From Bradyrhizobium erythrophlei (GTDB taxonomy: Bacteria; Pseudomonadota; Alphaproteobacteria; Rhizobiales; Xanthobacteraceae), in the NCBI RefSeq assembly GCF_900142985.1, contig NZ_LT670849.1:7394501-7458500 (forward strand): a stretch of 64,000 bases of DNA. Reading direction: 5' to 3'. Positions 25,064 to 27,773 of this stretch are shown here, in pieces; the first letter of the stretch is position 1; the number at the start of each line of letters is the position of its first letter. The notes below the pieces were generated by a model. It made no database searches, had not been told where the DNA came from, and worked only from the letters and a program-made list of their open reading frames with translations. The translations under genes were made by a program, and so were the position numbers.

Positions 25064-26143
25064 CTAGAATGTCAGTTCGTCGGCGCCGATCTCCTTGAAA
25101 TACGGCGCCAGCATTTCCGCCGTCACGTCCTCGACGCGTGGCGGCGACCATTTCGGGTTGCGGTCCTTGTCGATCACGGCCGCGCGCACGCCTTCGCGGA
25201 AATCGTCGCTGCGGAAGACCTCGAGCGCTGCGCGATATTCCCGCACCAGGCATTCTTCCAGCGACGCAGCGTTGCGTGCCAGTCGCAATAGTTTCAGCGT
25301 CACGACCATGCCGCGCGGCGATTTTTCGTTCAGCGTCTTGAGCGCTGCCTTCGCGAACTCCGAATCGTCGCGCGCGAGGCTTGCAAAAATATCTTCCATG
25401 CGATCATGCGCGAACCAGCGATCGATCGAAGCTTTCAGGGCCGCGACGGGACCTGCGCGCTCGCCGGTCGCAAAGCCCGCAGTGATCTTGTCAACTTCGC
25501 CTGAGGTGATGCCGGGCCGAACCGCCGTCAATGCTTCCCGCAATGCGGGCAATCTTGCCGAGGGCACGACCGCATCGGCAAAGCGCGCGAAGATCGCGTC
25601 CGGCCCGTTCATGGTCAGCCCAGTCAAGCCGAAGAACGCTCCGATATCGCCGGGCGATCGCGTTAGCAACCAGGTGCCGCCGACGTCGGGAAAAAACCCG
25701 AGCCCGACCTCGGGCATTGCAAGCTTGGTCTTCTCGGTGACGACGCGGTGGCGCGCGTGGCCGGAGAGCCCGACGCCGCCGCCCATCACCAGGCCATCCA
25801 TGAACGCGATATACGGTTTCGGATATTTTGATATCCGCGCATTCATGACGTATTCCTGCCGCCAGAATCGCTTGCCGAGATCGCCGCCGGCTTTTGAGCT
25901 CTCATAGAGCCCGCGGATGTCGCCGCCGGCACACAGGCCACGCTCGCCCGCGCCTTCCAGAATCACCACCGCAATGGCCGCGTCTTTCTCGAACCGATCG
26001 AGCGCCGCATCGATGCCCTGCGACATCTCATAGGTCATCGCGTTGATCGCCTTCGGCCGGTTCAGCCGGATGATTCCGGCCGCACCTTCGCGCCGCACGA
26101 TCAAATCACCTTCGGTCTCCGCAACCGCCGCCTGCGCCGTCAT
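25064..26143 (-). CDS. 3-hydroxyisobutyryl-CoA hydrolase (crotonase fold)
   Basis: Releases CoA from 3-hydroxyisobutyryl-CoA in valine breakdown. 359 residues. The family-specific features are AGGDIRGLYE, MDGLVMGGGVGLSGHAR and MPEVGLGFFPDVGG, which distinguish HIBCH from plain enoyl-CoA hydratases. The ATG at 26143 overlaps the stop of the DUF559 ORF as ATGA, and its GAGGG Shine-Dalgarno is part of the 15-bp direct repeat discussed at 26140-26154. Before the insertion this ATG must have overlapped the acyl-CoA dehydrogenase stop. Confidence 0.93.
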   Translation of the reverse strand: MTAQAAVAETEGDLIVRREGAAGIIRLNRPKAINAMTYEMSQGIDAALDRFEKDAAIAVVILEGAGERGLCAGGDIRGLYESSKAGGDLGKRFWRQEYVMNARISKYPKPYIAFMDGLVMGGGVGLSGHARHRVVTEKTKLAMPEVGLGFFPDVGGTWLLTRSPGDIGAFFGLTGLTMNGPDAIFARFADAVVPSARLPALREALTAVRPGITSGEVDKITAGFATGERAGPVAALKASIDRWFAHDRMEDIFASLARDDSEFAKAALKTLNEKSPRGMVVTLKLLRLARNAASLEECLVREYRAALEVFRSDDFREGVRAAVIDKDRNPKWSPPRVEDVTAEMLAPYFKEIGADELTF

Positions 26144-26154
26144 CGCGCACCCTC
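26140..26154. repeat. 15-bp direct repeat flanking the DUF559 insertion, right copy in gene order
   Basis: Minus strand GAGGGTGCGCGATGA is identical to 26628-26642. It contains a Shine-Dalgarno, the ATG of the hydrolase and a TGA stop. The bases on either side differ, so the identity is exactly 15 bp, as expected for a target-site duplication. Confidence 0.8.
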
Positions 26155-26631
26155 CGCTTTCTTCCCCTCTCCCCATGCGGGAGAGGGTGGCGTCGAGCGT
26201 GAGCGAGACGCCGGGTGAGGGGTATTCGCGAGTTCGGCCGCCAGGACGGTGAGAACTCCCTCCAGATTCGAAAGCACCTCATTGTTCCAGAAACGAACGA
26301 CCCGAAAATCGTTTTCCGCGAGCCAATGATCTCGCTTCATATCGCGCACGGAGTCGGCGTGCTGACCGCCATCCACTTCCACCACCAGCCGAGACCCATA
26401 GCTGAGAAAGTCCGCGACGTAAGGCCCAATTGGAACCTGACGCCGAAACTTGAATGACTGAAATCGGCGGTCCTTCAAGGCAAACCAGAGCTTCCTCTCG
26501 GCGTCGGTCATTTGCGACCGCAATTTACGCGCTGTCGTCGTGAGGGACCGAGCCCCCTCACCCGCCTCGCGCCTTTGGCGCTCGGCACCCTCTCCCGCAG
26601 GGGGAGAGGGAAAAGTAGAATGCGAGATCAT
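26140..26631 (-). CDS. DUF559 (Vsr-like) endonuclease-domain protein on an inserted cassette
   Basis: 163 residues. The DUF559 core runs from about 30 to 140: ARKLRSQMTDAERKLWFALKDRR, then FKFRRQVPIGPYVADFLSYG and VVEVDGGQH. The Asp and ExD spacing fits the PD-(D/E)xK/Vsr nuclease fold. Both protein ends (PSPPAGEGAERQRR and SPAWGEGKKAEGAR) are translated from the inverted R4 repeats. Start and stop each overlap a neighbouring gene as ATGA. Biological role is unknown for the family; small size and repeat flanks suggest a mobile or repeat-associated gene. Confidence 0.8.
   Translation of the reverse strand: MISHSTFPSPPAGEGAERQRREAGEGARSLTTTARKLRSQMTDAERKLWFALKDRRFQSFKFRRQVPIGPYVADFLSYGSRLVVEVDGGQHADSVRDMKRDHWLAENDFRVVRFWNNEVLSNLEGVLTVLAAELANTPHPASRSRSTPPSPAWGEGKKAEGAR
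26164..26222. repeat. Repeat R4, copy 1 (inverted pair flanking DUF559)
   Basis: Contains a hairpin CCCTCTCCCC/GGGAGAGGG followed by a second palindromic block GCGTCGAGCG...CGAGACGC and CGGGTGAGGGG. Its reverse complement matches 26554-26610, so the DUF559 core is enclosed by about 57-bp inverted repeats, each with internal stem-loops. Confidence 0.85.
26554..26610. repeat. Repeat R4, copy 2
   Basis: Inverted partner of 26164-26222: CCCTCACCCG, a degenerate middle block, then CACCCTCTCCCGCAGG and GGGAGAGGG. It encodes the N-terminal proline/glycine-rich stretch of the DUF559 ORF. Confidence 0.85.
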
Positions 26632-26642
26632 CGCGCACCCTC
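26628..26642. repeat. 15-bp direct repeat flanking the DUF559 insertion, left copy in gene order
   Basis: Minus strand GAGGGTGCGCGATGA, identical to 26140-26154. Here it encodes EGAR-stop of the acyl-CoA dehydrogenase and gives the DUF559 ORF its GAGGG and ATG. Confidence 0.8.
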
Positions 26643-27773
26643 GATCATCTTGCGCGCCACGATCAGCCGCATGATTTCGTTGGTGCCTTCGAGAATCTGG
26701 TGCACACGCAGGTCGCGCACGATTTTCTCGATGCCGTATTCGCTTAAGTAGCCGTAGCCGCCATGGAGTTGCAGCGCCTGGTTGGCGACCTCGAACCCGA
26801 CATCGGTGCCGAAGCGCTTGGCCATGGCGCAGAGCATGGTCGCGTCAGCGTCCTTGCGATCAAGCGCCGCAGCCGCGCGCCAGACAAAGGTGCGTGCCGC
26901 CTCGAGTTCGGTCGCCATGTCGGCGATACGGAACTGGAGCGCCTGGAACTCGTCGAGCCGCTTACCAAACGCCTTGCGATCCCTCATGTAGGCCAGCGCG
27001 CGGTCGAGCGCGTTCTGTGCCCCGCCGAGCGAACAGGCCGCGATGTTGATGCGCCCGCCGTCGAGGCCTGCCATCGCGATCTTGAAGCCGATGCCTTCGT
27101 CGCCGAGGCGGTTCGCGACCGGCACCCGCGCATTCTCGAAAATCACCGCGCGGGTCGGCTGTGCGTTCCAGCCCATCTTGCGCTCGTTGGCGCCGAGCGA
27201 CAGACCCGGCGTGTTGCCTTCGACCACGAGCGTGGAGATGCCGGCAGGCCCGCCTTCGCCGGTGCGCACCATGACGACGTAGAGATCGCCGCTCCCCGCA
27301 CCGGAGATGAACTGCTTCTGGCCGTTGAGGACGTAATGGTCGCCGTCGCGCACCGCGCGCGTCCGCAGCGCGGCCGCATCCGATCCCGAACCCGGCTCGG
27401 TCAGGCAATAGCTCGCCAGATAGTCCATCGTGCAGAGTTTCGGCAGCCACTGCTTGCGCTGGGTGTCGTTGCCATAGGCATCGATCATCCAGGCCGCCAT
27501 GTTGTGGATCGAGATGAAGGCCGCGACCGTCGGGCAACCCTGCGCCAGCGCCTCAAAGATCAGCGCAGCGTCGAACCGCGTCAGCCCGGTGCCGCCGACA
27601 TCGTCGCGGATATAGACGCCGCCAATGCCGAGCTTGGCGGCTTCGCGCATCACGTCGACCGGGAAATACTTCTCCTCATCCCATCGGATCGCGTGCGGCG
27701 CGATCTGCTCCGCGGCGAAATCCCGCGCCATGTCGCGAACCGCAATCTGGTCCTCGGTGAGTGCGAATTGCAT
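26628..27773 (-). CDS. Isobutyryl-CoA dehydrogenase-type acyl-CoA dehydrogenase
   Basis: FAD enzyme of 381 residues that should oxidise isobutyryl-CoA to methacrylyl-CoA, given its place between mmsA and the 3-hydroxyisobutyryl-CoA hydrolase. Typical domains: N-terminal helices, FAD-binding YCLTEPGSGSDAAALRTRA, and C-terminal QLHGGYGYLSEYGIEK. The catalytic base is Glu362 in LEGTNEIM, the position used by short/branched-chain members. GGAAGAA precedes the ATG. Its stop was probably coupled to the hydrolase start before the DUF559 insertion. Confidence 0.93.
   Translation of the reverse strand: MQFALTEDQIAVRDMARDFAAEQIAPHAIRWDEEKYFPVDVMREAAKLGIGGVYIRDDVGGTGLTRFDAALIFEALAQGCPTVAAFISIHNMAAWMIDAYGNDTQRKQWLPKLCTMDYLASYCLTEPGSGSDAAALRTRAVRDGDHYVLNGQKQFISGAGSGDLYVVMVRTGEGGPAGISTLVVEGNTPGLSLGANERKMGWNAQPTRAVIFENARVPVANRLGDEGIGFKIAMAGLDGGRINIAACSLGGAQNALDRALAYMRDRKAFGKRLDEFQALQFRIADMATELEAARTFVWRAAAALDRKDADATMLCAMAKRFGTDVGFEVANQALQLHGGYGYLSEYGIEKIVRDLRVHQILEGTNEIMRLIVARKMIEGAR

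Follow-up and report, generated by a model that had tools for sequence, protein, structure and literature searches.

In a 64,000-nucleotide stretch of the Bradyrhizobium erythrophlei contig NZ_LT670849.1 (positions 7,394,501 to 7,458,500; hereafter the window), a gene for a DUF559 nuclease and the inverted, hairpin-forming repeats that enclose it form a unit which is inserted, with duplication of its target, into the stop/start overlap of two genes, neither of which is broken. The unit is probably a nuclease-bearing form of a system resembling the repetitive extragenic palindromes (REPs) and their paired form, the REPINs, in which a Vsr-type nuclease stands in place of the RAYT enzyme.

The inserted unit and its empty sites

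The sequence GAGGGTGCGCGATGA (minus strand, as are all features described here) is present at 26628–26642 and again at 26140–26154, with a start-to-start distance of 488 bp, and this pair is the sole exact direct repeat of 15 bp with copies at most 600 bp apart in the window. A sequence-only reading of the window had described a 488-bp unit bounded by such a repeat, and this description stands. The first copy (26628–26642) holds the last codons and the stop of an acyl-CoA dehydrogenase gene, and its ATGA overlap supplies both this stop and the start codon of the DUF559 open reading frame (ORF; 163 aa, 26140–26631). The second copy (26140–26154) contains the stop of the DUF559 ORF, a GAGG resembling a ribosome-binding site, and the start codon of a hydrolase gene, the TGA which ends the ORF overlapping the ATG of the hydrolase. 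The GAGG ahead of each start could be a ribosome-binding site.

The hydrolase was searched in 146 genomes of the genus and the best 30 loci were fetched, i.e., that of B. erythrophlei and 29 others. The dehydrogenase/hydrolase junction is without the unit in all 29 of the other loci, each of which has one stop/start overlap and a single copy of the segment corresponding to the first GAGGGTGCGCGATGA. This overlap is ATGA in 27 loci and GTGA in L055, and can be read as GTGA or TGATG in L059, both being in frame. Because all 29 junctions are empty and have a single overlap, the unit of B. erythrophlei is an insertion that duplicated a 15-bp target, dehydrogenase-specific codons included. An empty site with a restored ATGA overlap had been set beforehand as the check to be made in related genomes. 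The ORF coordinates and the empty junctions also agree with the earlier proposal that the duplicated 15 bp supplies start and stop signals and leaves both host proteins intact.

Three elements make up each end of the unit: a palindrome of 23 nt, a second hairpin and, facing the gene, the G-rich tail GGGTGAGGGG. At the left end, the palindrome CCCTCTCCC-loop-GGGAGAGGG is located at 26588–26610, the predicted second hairpin at 26564–26586, and the inner tail GGGTGAGGGG at 26554–26563. At the right end, the inverted copy of the tail, CCCCTCACCC (26213–26222), is followed by the predicted second hairpin (26189–26212) and by the palindrome CCCTCTCCC-loop-GGGAGAGGG (26165–26187). Both palindromes were delimited by palindrome and fold analysis, the tails from the sequence, and both tails and second hairpins were surveyed as classes over other loci (see below). 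The inverted-repeat arms found by repeat search are 31 nt long and 90% complementary, and as single-stranded DNA both ends are predicted to fold into two hairpins (z scores of -2.7 for the right end and -1.9 for the left). No known RNA family was detected at gathering threshold in 26000–26800. The repeats had been described as inverted, about 57 bp long, with internal hairpins and translated ends; this is a fair description, and the N- and C-terminal stretches of the DUF559 ORF are indeed encoded by the repeats.

According to Pfam, the downstream host gene (25064–26143) belongs to the ECH_2 family (enoyl-CoA hydratase/3-hydroxyisobutyryl-CoA hydrolase type). The upstream gene (26628–27773) is resolved by Pfam to the acyl-CoA dehydrogenase superfamily only; isobutyryl-CoA dehydrogenase is the name given to it by the sequence-only reading.

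The DUF559 protein

The product of the inserted ORF is a member of DUF559 (Pfam E value 2.7e-36). Based on Pfam, alignment and fold, the domain, a Vsr-like PD-(D/E)XK nuclease, comprises residues 30–133 (26233–26544). DUF559 was the only family above the cut-off in the Pfam scan of this ORF, with MTES_1575 below it, and the scan gave no known transposase or recombinase domain. The fold is of the Vsr/I-Bth0305I type, which agrees with both the Vsr PD-(D/E)XK fold and that of the EDxHD homing endonuclease domain; in the structure model the domain is well modelled, and the first and last stretches, which are encoded by the repeats, are of low confidence. Residues E45, D74, D87, H91, and D97 are invariant among 37 aligned sequences and follow the order of the set E73, D102, D115, H119, and D124 of VsrA, the last spacing being one residue longer. 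The fold and the conserved catalytic residues agree with the Vsr-like identity first assigned to the ORF. The gene is under purifying selection in relatives (median dN/dS, the ratio of nonsynonymous to synonymous substitution rates, of 0.08, n = 22 pairs).

Inverted palindromes around DUF559 genes

A match to the DUF559 protein is present in 145 of the 146 genomes of the genus. Flanks were scored at 106 loci, of which 30 are from the genus and 76 from named genomes belonging to several phyla, after 4 had been dropped as too short. Loci were collected with six peptide patterns, of which MISHSTFP and WGEGKKAE derive from the repeat-encoded ends, the best 80 of 286 being kept; the protein query of the genus search includes the repeat-encoded ends as well, so that both searches may favour repeat-flanked copies. 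At 86 of the 106 loci (27/30 in the genus and 59/76 elsewhere), the inverted-flank score exceeds the 99th percentile of the scores at 203 control sites. The same score was passed by 54 of 59 further genus loci, and palindromes stand on both sides at 46 of the 59; 60 such loci had been hand-picked from the genus match list, mostly avoiding places beside recF, and one was dropped as short. A palindrome on both sides was observed at 79 of 107 loci, compared with any palindrome at all in 2 of 206 control windows.

The inner tails at the DUF559 ends are GGGTGAGGGG-like. Of the ends that have both a palindrome and a tail (n = 146), 43 leave no room for a second hairpin (at most 8 nt). The longer segments, 72 of them distinct, form at least 4 pairs in 68 cases, versus 928 of 1440 shuffles, and the mean energy of the second hairpin (-7.4 versus -2.7 in shuffles) is a better sign than the pair count.

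Palindromes and DUF559 genes among genomes

The 7.5-Mb genome of B. erythrophlei contains 16 palindromes of the form CCCTCYCCC..GGGRGAGGG, or 25 by a looser pattern. Four of the 16 flank two DUF559 genes. The other 12 are located away from DUF559, 10 of them in inverted pairs 72–131 bp apart, which is the layout of REPINs, and 2 solitary (L145 and L150). Palindromes of this kind are present in large numbers in other genomes. The unit had been regarded as a miniature, operon-tolerant mobile unit; the insertion with intact host genes agrees with this, but it is not a lone element, since gene-free inverted pairs are found in the same genome.

Co-occurrence was analysed in 289 alphaproteobacterial genomes from 219 genera, using the palindrome CCTCYCCC..GGGRGAGG and the Pfam domain alone for counting DUF559, with a match of E value <1e-20 taken as strong. 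At least 3 palindromes are present in 67 of the 72 genomes with a strong DUF559 match, versus 27 of the 217 without (odds ratio 94, p = 4e-37, uncorrected for phylogeny), and the median number per genome is 19.5 versus 0. After subtraction of two palindromes for each DUF559 match, the numbers are 60/72 versus 27/217. Of the 29 families having both states, 25 show a higher mean number of palindromes in genomes with DUF559, 3 a lower one, and 1 a tie. A link of the palindromes to the Y1 transposase is absent over the 289 genomes (20/59 versus 74/230, odds ratio 1.08), and no PF01797 (Y1_Tnp) match was found in the B. erythrophlei genome at an E value of at most 0.001; for the latter reason mobilisation by a RAYT was rejected. 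The within-family contrast, the Y1_Tnp comparison and the flank subtraction stand in for a genome-size control on these genomes. The type of repeat in a genome tends to go with the type of the DUF559 flanks: for palindromes of the CCTTCTCCC type, counts in 25 genomes reached via the loci gave a median of 23.5 where DUF559 flanks are of the same type (n = 6) versus 0 elsewhere (n = 19; p = 0.0012), the flank types having been assigned by hand from the flank comparison.

The copy number of DUF559 is low, mostly 1–5 matches per genome and up to 10. Together with the purifying selection seen in relatives, this suggests a slow system which is kept vertically, as RAYTs are, and not an active insertion sequence. 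In the open-access papers searched, as far as their text was available, no link of DUF559 to palindromic repeats was found, and the tendency of the nuclease and the hairpin repeats to occur together across many bacteria suggests a partnership that has not been described.

Other insertion sites

A close relative (L006 in genome G053; 67% identity over residues 64–162) sits after cysS. The end of cysS, AGATCGCGCGATGA, flanks this unit on both sides and, read by eye, amounts to a duplication of 14 bp of the site where this unit lies; the copy fell below the threshold of the direct-repeat survey described below because its left end is decayed. The cysS end was recognised by pattern in 7 of 30 fetched loci, namely G053 and 6 empty sites, the other 23 being unreadable by pattern. 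Each of the 6 readable empty sites has one copy of AGATCGCGCGATGA in the 130 nt shown, with TAA for TGA in L162. Read by eye, they have an ATGA overlap in L176, L177, L183, and L187 and TAATG in L162, L160 being unclear. In Rhodopseudomonas (L064 and L065) the unit is also present at the cysS end, with the ORF starting in ATGA; the right-hand duplication is not clear there.

The second DUF559 copy of B. erythrophlei is located at pheS-pheT. Among 30 loci fetched for this junction, 3 are empty with a GTGA overlap (L221, L225, and L242), 4 carry the unit, B. erythrophlei included, 9 have other content, and 1 has a palindrome without the gene. The pattern missed the pheS end in 15 of the 30, including L221 and L242, whose overlap was read from the sequence. 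Two pheS-pheT junctions of 109 bp (L232 and L245) hold tail-like and palindrome-like pieces and are apparently decayed units. All three sites with a readable empty state are stop/start overlaps, whether by target choice or by survival, and the earlier description of the unit as inserted into such an overlap is thereby extended to like targets at cysS and pheS/pheT.

At dnaN-recF, the DUF559 unit is present in 9 of 30 fetched loci, and 3 loci, B. erythrophlei included, have a palindrome but no DUF559 gene; for 6 of the 30 the start of recF could not be placed, and 700 bp were scanned there instead. The junction of B. erythrophlei itself (L150/L189) has a single left-type palindrome with its tail, apparently the remnant of a unit or a palindrome that inserted alone. 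In other genomes (L202, L204, L208, L213, and L218) the same junction is occupied by a different, GTCATGGCCGGGC-like repeat, which by its appearance resembles the CGTC family as described in the available part of PMC3733652.

Direct repeats at other copies

A clear target duplication was observed at 1 of 141 repeat-flanked loci tested (87 + 54), i.e., at the unit in the window, to which the cysS copy of G053 is added by eye. In the first set, a direct-repeat score of at least 9 was reached by 5 of 87 loci versus 1.4% for the null, a slight excess, and a score of 12 was not attained by any of 696 mismatched flank pairs. In the second set, from the genus, 1 of 54 loci scored at least 9 versus 3.0% for the null. 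The scores of 11–12 in L116, L108, and L274 are doubtful: the repeat of L116 borders what seems to be a different inverted repeat, that of L108 is imperfect, and that of L274 (score 12, the one locus of the second set) lies inside repeat sequence. Since direct repeats are only slightly more frequent than in mismatched pairs, target duplication was dropped as a general hallmark; duplications of constant length in most copies, which characterise a classical insertion sequence, were not found among the 141 loci. The sequence-only reading had expected direct repeats of constant length at other DUF559 copies with the flanks it called R4-type, and had named their absence as evidence against itself; most such copies are without them. 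Several of the non-duplicated copies are at sites shared across the genus, and may thus be old. In L116 (2001–2387 and flanks, a metagenome-assembled genome of Nitrosomonadales) the DUF559 unit is inside a longer inverted repeat starting with GGGTGCATTCG, adjoined by a 12-bp (perhaps 8-bp) direct repeat, as if a second type of element had captured the unit.

Relation to known systems and proposed mechanism

In the available portions of PMC2817692 and PMC8266576, the mobilisation of REPs is ascribed to TnpA-REP/RAYT enzymes. According to the part of PMC3733652 that was available, most REPs are sorted into the GTAG and CGTC families, and the alphaproteobacterial CGTC families are not associated with transposase genes. 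Among 179 of our palindromes, examined over 16 nt on their outer side, GTAG occurs once and CGTC 7 times, no more than expected by chance. To our knowledge, the abundant alphaproteobacterial palindromic repeats that are not linked to a RAYT have no assigned enzyme. The likeness to REP/REPIN-RAYT systems lies in short palindromes, often in inverted pairs and many per genome in some lineages, and in a single nuclease gene of low copy number boxed by its own repeats. The differences are the enzyme, here a Vsr-type PD-(D/E)XK nuclease as opposed to the HUH Y1 type of RAYT, and the inner tail, here GGGTGAGGG-like. Since the arrangement works in a REPIN-like manner and lacks an HUH Y1 enzyme, it is better regarded as a variant of the REP/REPIN kind than as a RAYT system.

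The Vsr/VsrA mismatch-repair endonucleases differ in that the gene is here placed between inverted repeats and inserted at new sites. The EDxHD homing endonuclease I-Bth0305I differs in that a hairpin-ended unit is here found between two genes, with no intron or intein recognised, and also in the target duplication of the window and cysS cases and in the nuclease-free repeat pairs. Miniature inverted-repeat transposable elements and insertion sequences share the inverted ends, the target duplication (in the unit of the window) and the nuclease-free derivatives; they differ in that the ORF has no known transposase or recombinase domain, the ends are hairpins and not simple terminal repeats, and duplications are not general.

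In the most likely mechanism, which is modelled on REP/RAYT systems, the Vsr-type nuclease would recognise the hairpins of its own ends and, together with host repair, would let the unit, and gene-free pairs in trans, insert elsewhere. For the insertion in the window, two nicks, staggered by about 15 nt on either side of GTGCGCGATGA, the stop/start overlap, and then filled in, would have produced the 15-bp duplication, which would leave both neighbours with their own stop, ribosome-binding site and start. The suggestion that DUF559 is its own mobilising nuclease finds support, as a candidacy, in the insertion, the boxing by repeats, and the co-occurrence. More tentatively, and with somewhat less than even confidence, we speculate that these units represent an undescribed class of mobile system, in which a nuclease of the Vsr/EDxHD type recognises hairpin REP ends, spreads its own gene and many nuclease-free palindromes in many bacterial lineages, and inserts by staggered cuts, with a preference for, or survival at, stop/start overlaps, in which duplication of the target gives each cistron a start and a stop. 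If this is true, Vsr-type repair nucleases, homing nucleases and the dissemination of REPs would be united in one fold. DUF559 is a family of unknown function, and its boxing by, and co-occurrence with, one repeat family makes the question of the enzyme directly testable; the unit in the window would, moreover, be a clean example of an insertion tolerated in a translationally coupled operon.

Several observations weigh against the interpretation as a nuclease-bearing REP/REPIN-like system. Every step of enzyme action, both cutting and transposition, is one that we infer, and the co-occurrence would be compatible with either direction of cause. Five or more palindromes are found in 17 genomes that have no strong DUF559 match, and fewer than 3 in 5 genomes that have one; Chiayiivirga (G440) has 201 CCTTCTCCC palindromes, yet its observed DUF559 flank belongs to the other type. 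Twenty of the 106 loci, including the third DUF559 copy of B. erythrophlei (L003), are below the inverted-repeat threshold, and duplications are absent at nearly all other DUF559 copies. Mismatched flank pairs, taken from different loci, also score high (75th percentile 30, compared with a threshold of 29), the ends of different loci being similar; the score therefore reflects one family of inverted ends and not locus-specific matching. The dN/dS values cover relatives and not the copy in the window, whose proportion of synonymous differences (pS) is 0.78 to the nearest fetched relative, and the Vsr-like fold is shared with mismatch-repair nucleases. Without a systematic search, one pair of near-identical copies was noticed in one genome (G011), beside two recF copies, which points to a duplicated or doubly assembled stretch.

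Alternative explanations

The DUF559 protein might be a free-standing homing endonuclease that cuts the allele lacking the unit, its gene being copied in when the double-strand break is repaired, with the palindromes as recognition or protection sequences. Homing by gene conversion should leave no target duplication of 14–15 bp. Duplications of 15 bp and 14 bp are seen at two of the sites, and none at most of the others. The insertion sites also differ in sequence, and nuclease-free pairs at unrelated sites are left unexplained; we consider this explanation unlikely. We give an equally low probability to the possibility that other machinery moves the repeats and that DUF559 is cargo carried between two of them. 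It would fit the mobilisation of REPs elsewhere that is attributed to TnpA-REP/RAYT in the accessible text of PMC2817692 and PMC8266576. Moreover, the activity of DUF559 on the repeats is putative, and the loci were collected with DUF559 as the query, so that the survey covers this gene alone among those which might lie between such ends. Nevertheless, the B. erythrophlei genome is without a PF01797 match, and the abundance of palindromes follows DUF559 and not Y1_Tnp, the sole transposase family compared.

A role in repair, in which DUF559, like the Caulobacter protein VsrA, would be a nuclease of mismatch repair or hairpin processing and would be kept where palindromes or 5-methylcytosine abound, is in our estimate less likely still. 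The precedent is VsrA itself, a DUF559 protein that, in the available part of PMC12907096, is required for the DNA-damage response upon loss of the solitary cytosine methyltransferase; the corresponding active-site residues are invariant here, and the purifying selection in relatives is in keeping with such a role. It fails, however, to account for a gene boxed by inverted copies of a repeat, or for insertion with duplication. A role as a defence system was also considered and dropped, the only match in PADLOC being a weak one to DpdF (E value 0.031).

Further observations on DUF559 loci

A phage origin was rejected, since 2 of 50,697 phage records match, and these distantly. Matches were found in 44 plasmid records, and 8 stretches fetched from these gave no filled/empty pairs, as the five stretches from Azospirillum brasilense/argentinense/TSH58 represent one locus. 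The third DUF559 domain of B. erythrophlei (L003, 1501–1809) is divergent, lies in an open frame of 403 codons without palindromic flanks, and is preceded in that frame by a part which reads by eye like an RNA methyltransferase. On a plasmid of Sinorhizobium sp. K101 (L255), a pair of palindromes is present on each side of DUF559, with starts 73–76 bp apart, i.e., the gene lies between two gene-free pairs. At a DUF559 locus shared by L251, L252, and L256 of Azospirillum, the left flank of L251 diverges from the other two just outside the palindromes, as if another insertion adjoined the unit there.
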